From Desulfobacterales bacterium (lineage in GTDB: Bacteria > Desulfobacterota > Desulfobacteria > Desulfobacterales > Desulfosalsimonadaceae), in contig JALOPH010000005.1 of assembly GCA_025453995.1 (NCBI GenBank), forward strand, positions 1 to 35,975: a DNA stretch of 35,975 nucleotides, given 5' to 3'. The notes beneath the pieces were generated by a model that saw only the letters and a list, made by a program, of their open reading frames with translations, had not been told where the DNA came from and made no database searches. The translations under genes were made by a program, and so were the position numbers. This document shows, in pieces, positions 9,444 to 31,229 of the stretch (position 1 is its first letter; every line of letters begins with the position of its first letter).

Positions 9444-10465
9444 TGGTCGGTCTGTTCCCCACCGCCGGGTTTTAGTATTTTTTCCAGATCCAGGAGATTT
9501 TCAGTTTTTCCCATGGCAATCAGAGTGTCCCCGACGTTCATAACGGTTTCAAATGACGGGTTAAAGATCATGTTGCCGTCAGGCCGCTTGATGGCAACAA
9601 TGATGAGATTAAATTTTTGGCGGAGCCCTGAGTCCTTTAGCATGACATTGGCAAAAGGAGAGCCGGGAATCACCGGAAATTCTTCCATTTGAATATCTTT
9701 GAGATTGTAATCAAATACAAGGTCTAAAAATGACGATACCGACGGCCGCAGAATCCTCTGGGCCATGCTGACGGCGCCGGTGTCGTAAGGGGATTCCACG
9801 TGATTGGCGCCGGCGGCTTTAAGTTTTGATTTGGCCCGCTGGCTGCCGGCCCGGGCCATGATGTGGATATTCGGGTTGAGCTGACGCGCCGTCAATACCA
9901 GAAACACATTGTCAATGTCTGTGGCCAGGACGGCAATCAATATTTTAGCCTTTTTGATGCCGGCTTTGAGCAGCGTGTCTTCATCAGAGGCGTCGCCGGA
10001 TATATACAGAATATTGTCTGATTCCAGACGCGAGATAAGTTCCGGATTTTTTTCAATTACCACGGCCTTGATCTGTTGATTCGCCTGAATGTGTTTGTAC
10101 AGTACCTGGCCGATGCGGCCGTAACCACATATAATGTAATGGTTTTTTATGCTTTCGATTTTTTTGTTCAATGTCCGCCTCCCCAAAATATCCCGGATCC
10201 TTCCCTCAACCATGAACTGGACCAAGGAGCCGGCTATATACAAAAAGAAAGATGCGCCGATGACCACCAGCAGGATCGTAAAAATATGACCCGTCCTGCT
10301 GAGCGGATGAACTTCCCCGAACCCGACCGTGGTGAGGGTGATGACCGTCATATAGATGGATTCTATAAGGCTCCACCCTTCAATGATCATGTAACCGACG
10401 GTTCCCCCTGCTAAAAACAAGAGCGCTAACGACAATGATATGAGCAGATTTTTTATGCTTGTCAT
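9440..10465 (-). CDS. potassium channel with RCK/TrkA-N regulatory domains
   Basis: This is a 341-residue inner-membrane protein. It has two transmembrane helices (about residues 8-28 and 63-88) around a pore loop with the selectivity filter TVGFGE. The cytoplasmic part starts near residue 108 with the RCK N-domain: HYIICGYGRIGQVLYKHI, a Rossmann nucleotide site, followed by the acidic AVVIEKNPELI. From about 250 a C-terminal TrkA-C-like domain follows (PGSPFANVMLKDSGLRQKFNLIIVAIKR). This order matches MthK-type ligand-gated K+ channels. It is transcribed first, with prmA overlapping by 4 bp. Confidence 0.9.
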   Translation of the reverse strand: MTSIKNLLISLSLALLFLAGGTVGYMIIEGWSLIESIYMTVITLTTVGFGEVHPLSRTGHIFTILLVVIGASFFLYIAGSLVQFMVEGRIRDILGRRTLNKKIESIKNHYIICGYGRIGQVLYKHIQANQQIKAVVIEKNPELISRLESDNILYISGDASDEDTLLKAGIKKAKILIAVLATDIDNVFLVLTARQLNPNIHIMARAGSQRAKSKLKAAGANHVESPYDTGAVSMAQRILRPSVSSFLDLVFDYNLKDIQMEEFPVIPGSPFANVMLKDSGLRQKFNLIIVAIKRPDGNMIFNPSFETVMNVGDTLIAMGKTENLLDLEKILKPGGGEQTDQ

Positions 10466-22931: not shown

Positions 22932-25862
22932 ATGAATACTCAATACAACGAGTTGCTTGAAAAGTATCATCTATTGTTAAGCGAAAACAGTCGTTTAGCA
23001 GAAGAAAATGCCAGGTTGAAAGCGCAACTGGGGATATCTGATTCCAAACCCTCTGAAAATCATAGCCTTGAGTTGATTGAGCAAGAAACATTAGCTGTTG
23101 GCGAATCACCGGGCGAAGATTCATTTTCAGATATCAACAACAAATCGGATTCCACATCAAAGATCAATTTGTTCATGTCGCTCTTCAACGGCCGCCATGA
23201 TGTGTATGCAATTCGGTGGGAGAACAAAAAGAAAGGAACTTCGGGATATTCGCCGGTTTGCCTGAATCAATGGCAGGCCGGGTTGTGCGTAAAACCCAAA
23301 GTCCCATGTGCGAAATGCCCCAATAAAAATTATGCCGCTTTAAATAATGAGGCCATAGAGAACCATCTGAGAGGAAATATCATTGCCGGCATCTACCCGA
23401 TGCTTCCGGATGAAACCTGCTGTTTTTTGGCAATCGATTTTGATGAGTCGGACTGGCAAACAGACGTCTCAATGGTAAGAGAAGCTTGTAATGAATTTAA
23501 TATCCCCGTCGCTGTTGAACGGTCTCGATCCGGCAATGGCGGGCATATGTGGTTTTTCTTTGAAATTCCTATATCCGCTGCATTAGCCAGAAAGTTTGGC
23601 AGCGGCATGCTGACTTTTTGCATGAACCAGCGGCATGAAATCCGTTTCAAATCCTATGACCGGCTGTTTCCCAATCAGGACACCATGCCCAAAGGCGGCT
23701 TCGGCAACCTGATCGCGCTGCCGTTACAAAAATCGGCAAGGGAAAATAACAACAGCGAATTTGTCGATAAAAATTTTATATCCTACCCTGATCAATGGGC
23801 ATTTTTAGCATCTATTCAAAAAATTTCTGAACTAAAGGTTGCAGACCTCATATCCGAGCTTTGCCAAGGCCATGAACTGGGAGAATTAAAAATTGATGAA
23901 GAGGAAATTCAAAAACCTTGGGAAACGCCCAAAGTCTTCTTGCAAAAAAACGATTTTCCGGAACGCATCGACATCATAAAAGCCAATATGTTCTTTATAC
24001 CAAAGGTTTCTTTCTCACAGAAAGCATTAAATCATTTGAAAAGACTGGCATCCTTTAAAAATCCAGAATTTTACAGACACCAGGCCATGCGATTGTCAAC
24101 CTATGGGCTTCCACGAATCATTTCCTGCGCTGATGAAACTATGGATTACCTGTGTTTGCCAAGAGGATGTGAAAATGATTTGATATCGGAATTTAAACAG
24201 CATGGCATTGAGGCGCAGTTTATTGATAAAACTAATTCCGGCAGGCAGATCAATGTGGAATTTACCGGCGAATTAAGAGATGAACAGTCTGTGGCGCTTG
24301 ATCAACTATTGCATCATGATAACGGAATTCTGTCCGGAACAACCGCCTTTGGCAAAACCATCGTGGCCATAAAACTGATTGCCGAACGAAAGGTCAATAC
24401 GCTGATCCTGGTGGATAGGGTCAGCCTGCTGTCTCAATGGAAAGAAAAATTATCGAATTTTTTAACCATCAATGAAACCTTTCCGGAAACAGATCTTTCG
24501 TTAGCCCAGGAAAAAGGGAGAAAAAAGAAGTCACATGTCATAGGCCAGCTCGGAGCGGGCAAGAACACATTAAGCGGCATTGTGGATATTGCAGTGGTGC
24601 AGTCCCTAAGCCGACTTGGAGAGGTCAAAGACTACGTTAAAAATTATGGAATGATCATTGCTGATGAGTGTCATCATGCGCCTGCCTTCAATTATGAATC
24701 TGTTTTAAAAACCGCCAATGCCAGATATGTTTATGGCTTAAGCGCCACTCCTTCGCGAAAGGACGGGCATCATCCGATTCTCTTTATGCAGTGCGGCCCC
24801 ATACGGTATCGCGATAATCCAAAAAAACAAGCGGGGATGCGGCCTTTTGAACACTTTGTCGTTCCACGGTTTACGCTGCTTAGGACGCCTTTTGATCAAA
24901 ATGAGAAAGATGTGTCCATCCAGGAATTGTATTGCCAAATCATTGATAACGATTTTCGGAATCAACAAATTGTTGATGATGTTCTTGCCAATTACAAGCT
25001 CGGCCGAAACTGCATTGTTTTGTCCTTAAGAACAGCTCATGTTGAGGTTATTGCAAAAGAGTTGAGAAAAGCCGTTCCAGACGTTGTGATGTTAAGAGGC
25101 GGCATGGGCGCAAAGACGACCCGGGAAGCCTTTAGCCGCATTGCCCATATGCCTGCGGATAAAAACCTCATATTGGTGGCCACTGGCTCCTTTATTGGTG
25201 AAGGGTTTGATGAACCGCGCCTGGATACCTTGTTTTTGGCCATGCCAATATCATGGAAAGGCACCCTGCAACAGTATGCCGGAAGGCTTCACCGGCTGTT
25301 TGAGAATAAAAAGGAAGTGCGAATTTATGATTATGTGGATATTCATGTGCGGATGCTTGAGAAAATGTATCAAAGACGGCTATCCGGGTATGCCTTGATG
25401 GGATACAAGGCAAAAGGCGATGATATCGTGTCAGCGCCCCTGGATATCATTTTTGACAACCGTAATTTCTTGCCGGTATTTTGCCAGGATATTGTTGGCT
25501 CAAAGAAAGAAATTTTTATCGTTTCACCATTTATCCGAAAAAAGCGCACCGCTGAAATGATAAACCACCTGAAAGCTGCATTCGGCAAGTCCATCCGGAT
25601 CATTGTTGTGACCCGGCCCGTGGAGGATTCTAAAGGAGAGGATAGGGCTTCTTTACAGAAAACACTTGGGCTCTTAACGGGCAACAATATAAGCGTTGTG
25701 TATAAATCGACTATTCACCAAAAATTTGCCATCATGGATCAAAAAATTGTATGGTACGGTAGCATCAATCTTTTAAGTTACGGTAATGCTCAAGAAAGCA
25801 TTATGCGTATTGAGAGTTCCAATATCGCCAACGAGTTGGTTAAGAGCATTTGTGACAGTTAA
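22932..25862 (+). CDS. AEP primase (TOTE type) - SF2 helicase - PLD nuclease fusion
   Basis: This is a 976-residue multidomain protein. Residues 1-35 form a coiled coil (LLLSENSRLAEENARLKAQL). Residues about 90-280 match the archaeo-eukaryotic primase domain of TOTE conflict systems, with four Cys (110, 119, 126, 129) as a probable zinc knot, the catalytic pair in AIDFDESD (Asp169, Asp171) and SRSGNGGH (His205). An SF2 helicase spans about 445-830: GTTAFGKT (469-476), DECHH (578-582), SATPSRKDG (604-612) and QQYAGRLHR. A single phospholipase-D-type motif ends the chain: His929, Lys931, Asp936, then GSIN. The predicted activity is to unwind, copy or cut nucleic acid. It is 19 bp behind fic. 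All motifs look intact. Confidence 0.88.
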   Translation: MNTQYNELLEKYHLLLSENSRLAEENARLKAQLGISDSKPSENHSLELIEQETLAVGESPGEDSFSDINNKSDSTSKINLFMSLFNGRHDVYAIRWENKKKGTSGYSPVCLNQWQAGLCVKPKVPCAKCPNKNYAALNNEAIENHLRGNIIAGIYPMLPDETCCFLAIDFDESDWQTDVSMVREACNEFNIPVAVERSRSGNGGHMWFFFEIPISAALARKFGSGMLTFCMNQRHEIRFKSYDRLFPNQDTMPKGGFGNLIALPLQKSARENNNSEFVDKNFISYPDQWAFLASIQKISELKVADLISELCQGHELGELKIDEEEIQKPWETPKVFLQKNDFPERIDIIKANMFFIPKVSFSQKALNHLKRLASFKNPEFYRHQAMRLSTYGLPRIISCADETMDYLCLPRGCENDLISEFKQHGIEAQFIDKTNSGRQINVEFTGELRDEQSVALDQLLHHDNGILSGTTAFGKTIVAIKLIAERKVNTLILVDRVSLLSQWKEKLSNFLTINETFPETDLSLAQEKGRKKKSHVIGQLGAGKNTLSGIVDIAVVQSLSRLGEVKDYVKNYGMIIADECHHAPAFNYESVLKTANARYVYGLSATPSRKDGHHPILFMQCGPIRYRDNPKKQAGMRPFEHFVVPRFTLLRTPFDQNEKDVSIQELYCQIIDNDFRNQQIVDDVLANYKLGRNCIVLSLRTAHVEVIAKELRKAVPDVVMLRGGMGAKTTREAFSRIAHMPADKNLILVATGSFIGEGFDEPRLDTLFLAMPISWKGTLQQYAGRLHRLFENKKEVRIYDYVDIHVRMLEKMYQRRLSGYALMGYKAKGDDIVSAPLDIIFDNRNFLPVFCQDIVGSKKEIFIVSPFIRKKRTAEMINHLKAAFGKSIRIIVVTRPVEDSKGEDRASLQKTLGLLTGNNISVVYKSTIHQKFAIMDQKIVWYGSINLLSYGNAQESIMRIESSNIANELVKSICDS

Positions 25863-25913: not shown

Positions 25914-27599
25914 ATGAAAATTCATATGAATGAGCACGAACACGATATAAACAAAATTCTCTCACAAGGTGAGACTCTTAAAGTTGAATTCAAGAGCGAT
26001 TCCAGGGGGCTACCAGATCGTGATCTTGTGGCCGCCGTCGTCGCCATGGCCAATACCGAAGGCGGTCTTATTCTGATCGGCGTTGAAGATGACGGTACCT
26101 TGACTGGAACGCAACCATCTCATCAGGATGCAGCCGGATTGACCGCGTTAATTGCAAACCGGACCAGCCCATCTGTGGCTGTTAGAACCGAGCTCATTGA
26201 TTGTAATAAAAAAAAGGTCTTAAGCATTCAGGTTCCCCAAGCCAGAGGGATTGTTTCAACTTCCGATGGATTGGTCTTGCGTCGTCGGCTTATGGTTTCC
26301 GGTAAACCAGAGGCTGTTCCATTTCACCCGCATGAATTCATGCAACGCCAATCATCGTTGGGACTTATTGATCCATCTGCAACGCCGCTGACATCAATTG
26401 CCGCTGATGATTTAAACCCCCTGGAACGCCAGAGGATAAGGGAGTCGATCCGTCGATATGGCGGAGATAAATCTTTACTCCCTTTAGCCGATGAAGAATT
26501 AGATGGCGCTCTCGGTCTTGTTACCACCATTGAAGGAATTCGACGGCCGACACTGGCAGGCTTGCTCCTTATGGGGCGTGAGGAAATTTTAAGGCAATAT
26601 ATACCCGCTCATGAGATCGCCTTTCAGGTTCTTTCAGGCACAGATGTTGTGGTCAATGAATTTTTTCGAAAACCGTTGCTCCAGACCTTTGAGGAAGTCG
26701 AGCTGCTTTTTAAAGCCCGCGTCGATGAGCAGGAAATTCAGATGGGGCTCTTTCGTGTTCCGATTCCAAATTATGACCGCAGGGCCTTCAGGGAAGCATT
26801 TATTAACGCGCTGGTGCATCGTGATTACTCCCGACTCGGTGCGGTTCATGTCCGCCTTGACAATGATGGAATGACACTTTCAAGCCCGGGAGGCTTTGTC
26901 GAAGGCATCACACTAAAGAATCTTTTGGTGGCCGCACCACGATCCCGCAATCCGATTCTGGCAGATATTGTAAAAAGAATAGGATTGGCTGAGCGCACCG
27001 GTCGCGGCATTGATCGGATTTATGAAGGAATGCTGCGTTATGGTCGGCCGGCTCCTGATTACACTCTATCGGATGCTACAACAGTAGTGCTTGTGATGCC
27101 AAAGTCGGATGCTGATATCGGGTTTCTGGAAATGATCTTGCGCCACGAGGAGCAGACCGGAATTGCTATGCCGATCGACAGCCTGATCATTCTTTCCCGT
27201 CTGCGTTATGAGAGACGCCTGACAACCGCAGCTCTGACCGACGATACCCAAAAATCCGAACAAGCAACCCGCACCGAGCTCGAAAAACTGACTGAAGCCG
27301 GTCTGGTGGAGGCTCATGGAACTGGGCGGGGCCGTACCTACACGCTTAGCGCCAGGGTGTACCAGCGTGTCGGTCAGAAATCAGCTTATATCAGACAAGC
27401 CGGATTCAACCCGATTCAACAAGAGCAAATGGTGTTGGCCTATATTGATAAGCACGGATCAATCAAACGCGCCGACGTGATGGATTTGTGCAGGGTTTCC
27501 GGTCCGCAGGCATATCATTTGCTTAATCGACTTAAGAAAAAAGGGCAAATTTATCAAAAAGGCGAAAAACGCTATGCCGTCTACACGCGGGACGTTTAA
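25914..27599 (+). CDS. AlbA_2 / GHKL-ATPase / winged-helix protein
   Basis: This is a 561-residue protein. Residues about 14-125 form the AlbA_2 (Schlafen-like) domain: GETLKVEFKSD, then DLVAAVVAMANTEGGLILIGVEDDGTLTG. Residues about 285-400 have the HATPase_c_4 pattern of proteins often mislabelled as RecG-like helicases: REAFINALVHRDYSRLGAVHVR, SPGGFVEGIT, ERTGRGIDRIYEGM. One or two winged helices follow (about 435-555; LTTAALTDDTQKSEQATRTELEKLTEAGLV and KHGSIKRADVMDLCRVSGPQAYHLLNRLKKKG). It is the third cargo gene and may act as an ATP-responsive regulator or nucleic-acid-binding effector. Start codons at 25914 and 25926 are both possible; the ribosome binding site is weak. Confidence 0.82.
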   Translation: MKIHMNEHEHDINKILSQGETLKVEFKSDSRGLPDRDLVAAVVAMANTEGGLILIGVEDDGTLTGTQPSHQDAAGLTALIANRTSPSVAVRTELIDCNKKKVLSIQVPQARGIVSTSDGLVLRRRLMVSGKPEAVPFHPHEFMQRQSSLGLIDPSATPLTSIAADDLNPLERQRIRESIRRYGGDKSLLPLADEELDGALGLVTTIEGIRRPTLAGLLLMGREEILRQYIPAHEIAFQVLSGTDVVVNEFFRKPLLQTFEEVELLFKARVDEQEIQMGLFRVPIPNYDRRAFREAFINALVHRDYSRLGAVHVRLDNDGMTLSSPGGFVEGITLKNLLVAAPRSRNPILADIVKRIGLAERTGRGIDRIYEGMLRYGRPAPDYTLSDATTVVLVMPKSDADIGFLEMILRHEEQTGIAMPIDSLIILSRLRYERRLTTAALTDDTQKSEQATRTELEKLTEAGLVEAHGTGRGRTYTLSARVYQRVGQKSAYIRQAGFNPIQQEQMVLAYIDKHGSIKRADVMDLCRVSGPQAYHLLNRLKKKGQIYQKGEKRYAVYTRDV

Positions 27600-27706: not shown

Positions 27707-27727
27707 TGACGGTATTTTTGACGGTAT
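27707..27727 (+). repeat. TGACGGTAT repeats, right end of the island
   Basis: Two copies in direct orientation, 27707-27715 and 27719-27727, lie about 60 bp inside the right attachment repeat. They match the left-end copies at 21141-21190 and support both ends belonging to the same element. Confidence 0.6.
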
Positions 27728-27789: not shown

Positions 27790-27806
27790 CCCTCAGCTCC
27801 ACCAGA
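27790..27806 (+). repeat. right attachment repeat of the island
   Basis: CCCTCAGCTCCACCAGA is identical to bases 21015-21031. No tRNA body precedes it; upstream is only AT-rich island DNA, so it is the partial copy left by integration. The two copies are 6775 bp apart. Confidence 0.88.
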
Positions 27807-29415: not shown

Positions 29416-29577
29416 ATGACAAAGACAAAGCAAGCCGAAAATTCATCCATCGTTGATAAAGGCCTGGTCGCCATGTTCCTCAAAATGACGCCCGAGGAGC
29501 GGCTCAAAGCAAATGACAATGCACTGAGAACTGTTTTGGAATTAAGAAATGCCTATCGACAACAAAAGACCAGCTAG
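29416..29577 (+). CDS. small protein paired with nucleotidyltransferase, possible antitoxin
   Basis: This is a 53-residue protein: MTKTKQAENSSIVDKGLVAM and the helix MTPEERLKANDNALRTVLEL, then a basic end. The MTPEERL helix recurs in short hypothetical proteins encoded next to nucleotidyltransferases. It overlaps the start of the following gene by 29 bp in another frame, which implies translational coupling. It has no clear ribosome binding site of its own beyond the AGGGA inside the palindrome. In such pairs the small protein is a plausible antitoxin or adaptor. The frame is supported by the overlap and the well-formed helix; the function is unknown. Confidence 0.6.
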   Translation: MTKTKQAENSSIVDKGLVAMFLKMTPEERLKANDNALRTVLELRNAYRQQKTS

Positions 29578-30073
29578 ACCAGACCTAAGCGCACTCCTTG
29601 AGGGGCTTCTTAAGGCAAACGTCAAATTTATCCTTGTGGGCGGCTTGGCCGCCGTTGTTCAGGGCGCGCCGATCACAAGAATGGATGTTGACATTGTTCA
29701 TCACCAATCATCTGAAAACATTGATAGACTTTTTGGGTTTTTAAAATCAATTTCTGCTATTTATCGACGCCCTGACGATAAAGTAATAACACCAGATTTG
29801 CAGGGTTTTGCAGGATCAGGGCATGTTTTTTTGAGCACCCAGTTGGGGCCTCTTGATGTCTTGGCATTTATAGAGGAAGGAAAAACCTATGATGATCTTA
29901 TTGAGCACACTGTTGAAATTGAATTCAGAGGCCATAGGGTTTACGTTCTTGACTTGAAAAGGATTGTGGAGCTTAAAAGGTTTTCAAGCGACCCCAAGGC
30001 CAAGCAGCGGCTTCCGGTTCTGGAAGAAACCCTTCGGCAGTTAAGCGATGAATCGGATGACTCTACTCAATGA
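29549..30073 (+). CDS. AbiEii/MNT-like nucleotidyltransferase
   Basis: This is a 174-residue cytoplasmic protein. The nucleotidyltransferase signature is intact: VKFILVGGLAAVVQGAP (Gly31-Gly32), then TRMDVDIVHH with Asp46 and Asp48 as the metal-binding pair. A third acidic residue is probably Asp in PLDVLAFIEEG. The end VYVLDLKRIVELKRFSSDPKAKQRLPVLEETL is the helical tail typical of the AbiEii-like group. AbiE toxins and relatives transfer nucleotides to tRNA or proteins, so this may be the toxin of the pair. It overlaps the 53-residue gene, and the membrane-protein gene starts 33 bp after it. The fold is well supported, the toxin role moderate. Confidence 0.8.
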   Translation: MPIDNKRPARPDLSALLEGLLKANVKFILVGGLAAVVQGAPITRMDVDIVHHQSSENIDRLFGFLKSISAIYRRPDDKVITPDLQGFAGSGHVFLSTQLGPLDVLAFIEEGKTYDDLIEHTVEIEFRGHRVYVLDLKRIVELKRFSSDPKAKQRLPVLEETLRQLSDESDDSTQ

Positions 30074-30106: not shown

Positions 30107-30508
30107 ATGACGGATGTCGAGAATGAATTACTAAAGCTCAATGAATATCATGAGCAACTTGCCACCCATGATCCGGCCGTGCAGGCCAGCATGCTTCGCA
30201 ACGGTTTTTTGCCTGATTCGACAGAGGCGCTGGTGGAAGCCGGGATTCGCTGCATTCCTCTAATTGAAAGCGGCCGTGTTGATCTTGAAGACGCGGCGGG
30301 AGACCGGCTTGAAGCGATCATTTTCAAGCTCAAACTAATCCCTGATACATCCAGCGTCCGTAAGGTTCTTGAGAAATTTGAGGGGTTGATTCAGGAGAAA
30401 AAGAAAAAAGCAAGCTCGGACATGAAGTTCGGCTTAGCCGCTATGATTGGCCTGACCATGATTATCGGAGCATTGGTTGCGTATATAATATATTTGTTTA
30501 TTCGTTAA
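30107..30508 (+). CDS. tail-anchored protein of unknown function
   Basis: This is a 133-residue protein. The first 95 residues are helical and charged (MTDVENELLKLNEYHEQLA, DRLEAIIFKLKLIP, KVLEKFEGLIQEKKKK). A single C-terminal transmembrane helix follows (LAAMIGLTMIIGALVAYIIYLFI), so the protein should be anchored in the inner membrane by its tail. I recognise no family. It follows the nucleotidyltransferase by 33 bp on the same strand, with an AAGGGG-like site upstream, so the three may form one transcript. The last 11 bp overlap the end of the convergent recombinase gene. Confidence 0.6.
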   Translation: MTDVENELLKLNEYHEQLATHDPAVQASMLRNGFLPDSTEALVEAGIRCIPLIESGRVDLEDAAGDRLEAIIFKLKLIPDTSSVRKVLEKFEGLIQEKKKKASSDMKFGLAAMIGLTMIIGALVAYIIYLFIR

Positions 30509-31229
30509 TGAGGCCCGTCATCTCTGCTTTTTGTTCATACACCGGCAATATCGCATCCAGCTTATTGATTTTCAGCCAGTGATACAGATTGGTCTTGGAT
30601 GTGGCGTACTTTTTCATGATATAGGCTTTGGTGGAGCCGGATTTGAGCAGTGAAACGATTTCTTCTCTGTGCGGGTCCAGCTTGGATGGCGCCGGTTTTC
30701 CTTTTTTGCGCCCCAACCCAAGCCCTTTTGCTTTTCGGTTGGCCAGGCCCTCCCGGGTTCTCACGGAAACCAATCCCCGTTCTATCTGGGCTGAAACAGC
30801 ATATAGCATGGAAATCATCTGGGGAGAGATGGTGCGATCAATCTGCCAACGGTTTTTTACATCGCAGACGGTAACGCCTTTTTCATAGAGCTTCGCCAGC
30901 AGGCTGATCACATCCGTGACACTTCGGCCCAGCCGGCTGAACTCATCCACAATCAGCCGGTCGCCGCTTTGGAGCGCGCCGGCCAGCCAATGGAGTTCTT
31001 TTCTGTTTTTCCAGCTTTTCATGCAGGAAACGGCTTCGAGCACCATGCCGTTCAAAATCCAACCGTAATAACCGGCATGATCGCGTATCCGCGTGTCTTG
31101 TTCCTGGGGGGGGCCGTCAACCGGGCTGATGCGGATATATCCGACGGTCAACAGGTCCCTGGGCTTGCGGGCAAACTCCTGGCGGGCGATGTCATTGGAA
31201 TTACTTGAATTTGAAAGCTCGGTATTCAT
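30498..31229 (-). CDS. serine recombinase (resolvase/invertase family)
   Basis: This is a 243-residue site-specific recombinase. The catalytic domain runs from about 27 to 170: VGYIRIS (Arg33, Ser35 as the nucleophile), then DRLIVDEFSRLGRSVTDVISLL (the conserved DxLxRLGRS motif), and VSAQIERGLVSVRTREGLANRKAKG, the E helix. A short DNA-binding end follows (KGKPAPSKLDPHREEIVSLLKSGSTKAYIMKKYATSKTNLYHWLK), a helix-turn-helix like that of Hin and Gin. All catalytic residues seem present. It is shorter than large transposon resolvases and has no transposase next to it. It follows the 92-residue gene by 14 bp. Possible targets are nearby repeats, but none stands out. Confidence 0.85.
   Translation of the reverse strand: MNTELSNSSNSNDIARQEFARKPRDLLTVGYIRISPVDGPPQEQDTRIRDHAGYYGWILNGMVLEAVSCMKSWKNRKELHWLAGALQSGDRLIVDEFSRLGRSVTDVISLLAKLYEKGVTVCDVKNRWQIDRTISPQMISMLYAVSAQIERGLVSVRTREGLANRKAKGLGLGRKKGKPAPSKLDPHREEIVSLLKSGSTKAYIMKKYATSKTNLYHWLKINKLDAILPVYEQKAEMTGLINE

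Follow-up and report, generated by a model that had tools for sequence, protein, structure and literature searches.

What does a bacterial protein do when it joins a primase, a DNA motor, and a nuclease in one chain? The question is raised by an uninterrupted open reading frame in a 35,975-nucleotide stretch of Desulfobacterales DNA, the whole of which we call the window. An earlier note, made from the letters alone, had described this frame as a single 976-residue protein with a coiled coil, a zinc knot, an AEP primase, an SF2 helicase, and a PLD nuclease, and had suggested that it acts on invading or damaged nucleic acid. Because the frame is uninterrupted and has full-length relatives at 52-74% identity, we take it to be a real gene. 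Pfam profiles and an AlphaFold2 (AF2) model bear out the coiled coil, primase, helicase, and PLD parts in one chain, arranged as follows:

22932..25862, forward strand: AEP-TOTE / XPB-like SF2 helicase / PLD protein, 976 aa (ORF, Pfam, AF2 model)
22944..23027, forward strand: N-terminal helix, residues 5-32, probable coiled coil (AF2 model; pattern kept in most relatives)
23160..23846, forward strand: AEP-TOTE primase-polymerase domain, residues 77-305 (Pfam PF22548; CAPP fold)
23259..23318, forward strand: Cys4 zinc knot C110/C119/C126/C129, within the primase domain (conservation)
23436..23444, forward strand: AEP motif I, D169-F-D171 (aligns with the CAPP DxD)
23544..23546, forward strand: AEP motif II, H205 (invariant)
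23958..24236, forward strand: XPB/UvsW-type N-terminal domain, residues 343-435 (structure alignments)
24270..24758, forward strand: SF2 motor RecA1, residues 447-609, with Walker A and DECHH (Pfam ResIII)
24969..25298, forward strand: SF2 motor RecA2, residues 680-789, with motif VI GRLHR (Pfam Helicase_C)
25482..25844, forward strand: PLD nuclease-like domain, residues 851-971 (Pfam PLDc_2; AF2; folds of NucT, Nuc, and SauUSI)
25716..25739, forward strand: HxKx4D motif, residues 929-936 (sequence)

Profile comparison returned Pfam matches to AEP-TOTE, ResIII, Helicase_C, and PLDc_2. The first of these (PF22548) spans residues 77-305 with 337.5 bits and an E-value of 5e-101. In an AF2 model of the monomer built from 55 family sequences (mean pLDDT 84.6 and pTM 0.74 for the full chain), residues 72-313 superpose on the PrimPol domain of Marinitoga CAPP with a Z score of 25.0 and an rmsd of 2.2-2.7 Å over about 200 residues, the best match to a solved primase; the PADLOC PrimPol model scores 306 bits. 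Profile, fold, and the DxD and SxGxxH motifs together place the protein in the AEP superfamily. S241/D243 and Q249-D250, which the earlier note does not list, are invariant in the family alignment and are a candidate for the third AEP acidic motif. The zinc knot needed revision: its four cysteines are present and conserved, but C110, C119, C126, and C129 lie inside the Pfam AEP-TOTE domain and therefore form part of the primase rather than a separate module. Published work shows that CAPP-type AEPs both prime DNA and extend it, and that MpCAPP with the D177A/D179A mutations has no activity (PMC8211822). The 976-residue protein likely synthesizes primers.

The motor carries GTTAFGKT at G469-T476 and DECHH at D578-H582, although its Helicase_C match (residues 680-789, 23.0 bits) falls slightly below the cut-off of 23.5. 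Its fold points to XPB. Residues from about 343 to 830 align with XPB. The match to Sulfolobus tokodaii XPB in complex with Bax1 and forked DNA (6p4f) spans model residues 344-818 at Z 22.9 and an rmsd of 4.1 Å over 388 residues, and archaeal XPB structures as a group give Z scores of 23-24. T4 UvsW aligns with the motor region at Z 20.0 (rmsd 3.4 over 242). Because the XPB and UvsW alignments start at residues 343-345, we regard residues 343-435, another region absent from the earlier note, as the equivalent of their N-terminal domain. Thus, the protein pairs two RecA domains with an XPB-type N-terminal domain, as in 6p4f. It scores only 45.6 bits against the XPB equivalog model, whose curated cut-off is 610.

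At the C-terminus, PLDc_2 matches residues 851-971 with 39 bits against a cut-off of 27. Modeled separately (pLDDT 88), this part gave Z scores of 15.0 with NucT (rmsd 2.6 over 135 residues), 14.9 with Nuc, and 14.8 with the PLD domain of SauUSI (rmsd 3.3 over 139 residues). A PLD fold is here combined with the HxKx4D motif of PLD nucleases, formed by H929, K931, and D936 and followed by YGSIN. Every active-site residue that had been named for the three enzymatic domains is present in the sequence. There is one HKD motif per chain, and the view that a PLD active site would need a dimer fits the nearest folds, Nuc, NucT, SauUSI, and Zucchini. Residues 5-32 form one helix in the model, with pLDDT of about 90 over residues 11-30 and a heptad-like spacing of Leu and Glu; this helix is probably a coiled coil. 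Pfam found no SRA domain in the protein.

The gene sits in a small island, whose parts are these:

20954..21029, forward strand: tRNA-Ala(GGC), integration target of the island (ARAGORN)
21015..21031, forward strand: left attachment repeat CCCTCAGCTCCACCAGA at the tRNA 3' end (17 bp, identical to 27790-27806)
21141..21190, unstranded: three TGACGGTAT repeats, probable integrase arm sites, left end (repeat count)
21195..21455, forward strand: integrase remnant, arm-binding domain only, 86 aa (Pfam Arm-DNA-bind_3, E 1e-12)
21758..22912, forward strand: DUF4172-Fic protein with intact HPFEDGNGRIAR motif (Pfam, sequence)
25914..27599, forward strand: SLFN/AlbA_2 + HATPase_c_4 + winged-helix protein, last island gene (Pfam)
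27707..27727, forward strand: two TGACGGTAT repeats, probable integrase arm sites, right end (repeat count)
27790..27806, forward strand: right attachment repeat, 17 bp (exact repeat of the tRNA 3' end)

All five copies of TGACGGTAT in the window, where 0.14 would be expected, lie just inside the two island ends, and the tyrosine integrase remnant that follows the tRNA has no catalytic domain downstream. From the attachment repeats, the TGACGGTAT sites, and this remnant we conclude, on sequence grounds, that the locus is an integrative island, about 6.8 kb long and now decayed, whose three cargo genes are intact. The Fic gene ends 19 bp before the 976-residue gene begins. A search for an empty tRNA site in ten related loci found no tRNA near the neighboring RlmL-like gene. 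Two genes beyond the island are recorded for completeness: a small nucleotidyltransferase-like protein (29549-30073; GGLAAVVQG...DVDIV) that has no Pfam match and, close by the island on the reverse strand, a serine recombinase of the Mpi invertase type (30498-31229).

A scan of genome contigs yielded 39 confirmed related stretches from 38 loci, most of them full-length. They come from Desulfobacterota, Bacillota (Desulfosporosinus, Petroclostridium, Pelosinus, and Pseudobacteroides), Bacteroidota, and MAGs of Acidobacteria and Omnitrophota. An AEP-TOTE domain in any architecture occurs in 103 of 395 genomes of the window's phylum, and 42 of 60 related genomes have some match to the protein, many at the helicase level only. 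A form that lacks the PLD domain is found in 70 plasmid records with at least 80% coverage. With 80% or more of its gene as the threshold, 681 of the 5426 complete Escherichia coli genomes (about one-eighth) have it too.

We built a tree from the primase-motor region shared by 75 sequences. One clade of 46 sequences, with support of 1.0, contains a PLD-like domain in every member. A second clade of four sequences, also with support of 1.0, has a DUF559 nuclease in place of PLD. The sequences outside these two clades mostly have no C-terminal domain. Given two fully supported clades, the PLD domain was probably gained once in the family and the unrelated DUF559 nuclease in a sister line. L111 shows an apparent PLD-like match but falls outside this clade, on a very long branch whose support is low (0.257), and we do not argue a second acquisition from it.

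Within the core PLD clade, every member whose PLD domain could be aligned has intact HKD residues. For the AEP and helicase residues the one exception is L050, where D171 and a single cysteine are missing. The Cys4 set is kept across the 75 sequences apart from that cysteine in L050 and apart from the most divergent members, L111-L113. The earlier note had named two results that would count against it, a predicted fold at odds with the primase and loss of an active site in close relatives. Neither was found, since the fold upholds the primase and the named residues are kept in nearly all close relatives. Farther away, three proviral sequences (L099, L101, and L111) retain the PLD-like domain and its C-terminal D-x-WYG block after losing HxK, so the domain may also serve in binding or dimerization.

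Broken copies occur as well, isolate genomes included (L063, L065, and L059/L061). The Pseudobacteroides cellulosolvens homologue is split at the DECHH box of motif II (L059, about 9740-9779; L061, about 4860). The two halves lie about 3.6 Mb apart; ParA/ParB genes come after one of them and large serine recombinases before the other, an arrangement which suggests that an element integrated into the homologue and that a rearrangement came later. In Desulfosporosinus fructosivorans (L065:8004-8876), an in-frame internal deletion fuses primase residues 1-226 to the PLD end (911-973) in one open frame. Two members of the PLD clade have their PLD-like domain in a broken or adjacent frame. Their breaks (L042, about 3270; L014, about 3930) are independent, one a stop and one a frame change, and fall just before the PLD domain, at residues of about 811-815, leaving a nuclease-free primase-helicase.

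A close upstream gene of at least 100 aa on the same strand accompanies 16 of the 39 loci with a visible upstream ORF. Five of these genes are AbiEi/AbiEii, three Fic, three DUF4143, and one a XamI restriction-methylase fusion. In the sister lines without PLD, Fic genes appear in L069 and L095 and as a C-terminal part in L019, and HigB with a regulator precedes the PLD-less copy on an Acinetobacter plasmid. We looked for a conserved operon partner and rejected the idea, as clustering of the neighbors gave only AbiE, DUF4143, and AlbA_2 types, each in a minority. The toxin and conflict neighbors may partly reflect island ecology and merely mark mobile islands. In three PLD-less loci (L071, L073, and L088), the gene of a short conserved protein shares 29 bp with the start of the homologue; the L071 copy has no Pfam match, and the protein is a possible true partner in that lineage. 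In Escherichia albertii (L128:7250-13187), the PLD-less gene is flanked by a recombinase and a Tn3 transposase, much like transposon cargo, and on Sinorhizobium meliloti pMl1 (L126:6832-10469) the gene directly follows one of the TniQ family.

The reading we favor, at a probability of about 0.58, is that the 976-residue protein is a conflict enzyme, spread horizontally and working mostly on its own, whose target is the DNA of invading or competing genetic elements. Mobility speaks for it, in the form of the tRNA-Ala island, patchy matches in several phyla, and plasmid copies. So do the Fic and AlbA_2 genes in the island, the toxin or abortive-infection genes upstream elsewhere, and the exchange of PLD, DUF559, or no nuclease on one primase-motor chassis. 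The conserved active sites and the SauUSI precedent for a motor joined to PLD fit as well. Action on invading nucleic acid, as first suggested, thus gains indirect support from mobile context, neighbors, and nuclease swapping, and we consider the earlier note's interpretation partly supported. Against a conflict role stand the many members that have no nuclease, the diverse neighbors without an obligatory partner, and the three distant members that keep a PLD-like domain without HxK. Furthermore, host DNA must be spared, yet no recognition domain such as SRA was found in the protein.

From these domains we infer the following course of events. The protein would dimerize through its coiled coil and PLD domain. 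Its primase domain, zinc knot included, and its XPB-type N-terminal domain would load it onto foreign replication or transfer intermediates. The XPB-like motor would then track duplex DNA using ATP, and the PLD dimer would cut at a block or where two complexes run into each other. On exposed single strands, the primase would probably make or extend primers, and this may help to target, mark, or consume the replication intermediates of the invader. Because many members lack a nuclease, cutting is not the core function of the family, and the existence of these nuclease-free relatives suggests that the primase-motor unit is useful alone, with the nuclease as an add-on effector. A more tentative idea goes further and sees a one-protein immune system. 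Its CAPP-like primase would begin where an incoming or replicating element exposes single strands, the XPB-like motor would depart from there, the interchangeable C-terminal nuclease (PLD, DUF559, or none) would decide the outcome, and an upstream toxin gene would act as back-up, with priming as part of the recognition or destruction of the invader. It is unusual for a restriction-like machine to contain a DNA-synthesizing enzyme. The existence of forms with PLD, with DUF559, and with no nuclease offers a natural test, separating what the primase does without a nuclease from what the nuclease adds, in a widespread family whose functional picture rests on predictions.

The same mobility could mean that the enzyme replicates or maintains its carrier, with the primase priming, the helicase opening DNA, and the PLD domain resolving or nicking intermediates. 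Fusions of primase and helicase are a typical feature of plasmids and phages, most CAPP-like AEP-helicases away from CRISPR loci belong to mobile elements (PMC8211822), and our gene is found in islands and plasmids as well as close to genes for transposition or recombination. We nevertheless find this role doubtful. None of 50,697 phage records covers 80% of the query, and with no full-length match there we rejected a phage replication protein. The motor belongs to the XPB-type SF2 translocases rather than to the hexameric replicative helicases, the carrier elements are mutually unrelated, and in the window the island has decayed while the gene is intact. Moreover, the homologue in E. coli islands adjoins a YfjI-family gene, which we take to be the probable replication protein of that element.

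Tolerance or repair of DNA damage, with the XPB-like motor locating blocked sites, the primase priming anew, and the nuclease trimming, seems to us rather improbable. The XPB N-terminal domain, which residues 343-435 match, is called a damage-recognition domain, and archaeal XPB works with the nuclease Bax1 in the very complex that we found as a structural match. However, the gene's patchiness even among close genomes, its mobile context, its toxin neighbors, and its several broken copies are unlike a housekeeping repair gene, and the XPB equivalog score is far too low.

An enzyme of CRISPR adaptation that makes or trims spacer precursors is already disfavored, and we give it hardly any weight: despite the CAPP fold and the PADLOC score, no cas genes, cas1 and cas2 included, were present among the scanned island genes or among the best 25 recurrent families listed for 143 neighboring proteins, so that by context the protein is not a CAPP.

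How does the protein compare with known systems? TOTE conflict systems, named for TPR, OB, TBP, and Effector (cited in PMC12458937), share only the AEP-TOTE domain with it. No TBP gene (PF00352) was found in its own genome (91.7% complete) or in 60 relatives, although positive controls were detected, and no TPR or OB-fold partners are adjacent, the island flanks being Fic and AlbA_2/HATPase by Pfam. We therefore rejected a TOTE system and use AEP-TOTE as a domain name only. The literature search returned no published AEP-helicase-PLD fusion in open-licence full text, and no account of the PLD clade, its DUF559 counterpart, or the repeated toxin-adjacent placement in the searchable literature.

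AEP-helicase fusions themselves are already described (PMC8211822), and the E. coli relative is named in RefSeq as a "TOTE conflict system archaeo-eukaryotic primase domain-containing protein". At about 790 aa and 43% identity, it has the same order of AEP-TOTE and XPB-like parts; unlike the 976-residue protein, it lacks the C-terminal nuclease and lies in islands with YfjI and inovirus-Gp2-type genes. The form described as commonest among CAPP-like proteins outside CRISPR, a PrimPol with a helicase after it (CAPP_A; Zabrady et al. 2021, PMC8211822), shares the primase fold and DxD with our protein, but the text of that paper mentions no PLD domain, and here there is no Cas1-Cas2 partner. Archaeal XPB-Bax1 resembles the motor, including its N-terminal domain, whereas its nuclease is a separate protein and it has no primase. 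Finally, SauUSI, a type IV restriction enzyme, is likewise a PLD nuclease and SF2 motor in one chain. It differs in its N-terminal PLD domain, its SRA domain that recognizes 5mC, and its lack of a primase, while the 976-residue protein has a C-terminal PLD domain and no SRA, and a motor nearer to XPB (Z 23-24) than to SauUSI (Z 17.7). SauUSI dimerizes through its nuclease domains, translocates with ATP, and cuts, making a PLD domain and motor in one chain an established restriction design and a model for cutting after translocation (PMC7913695).
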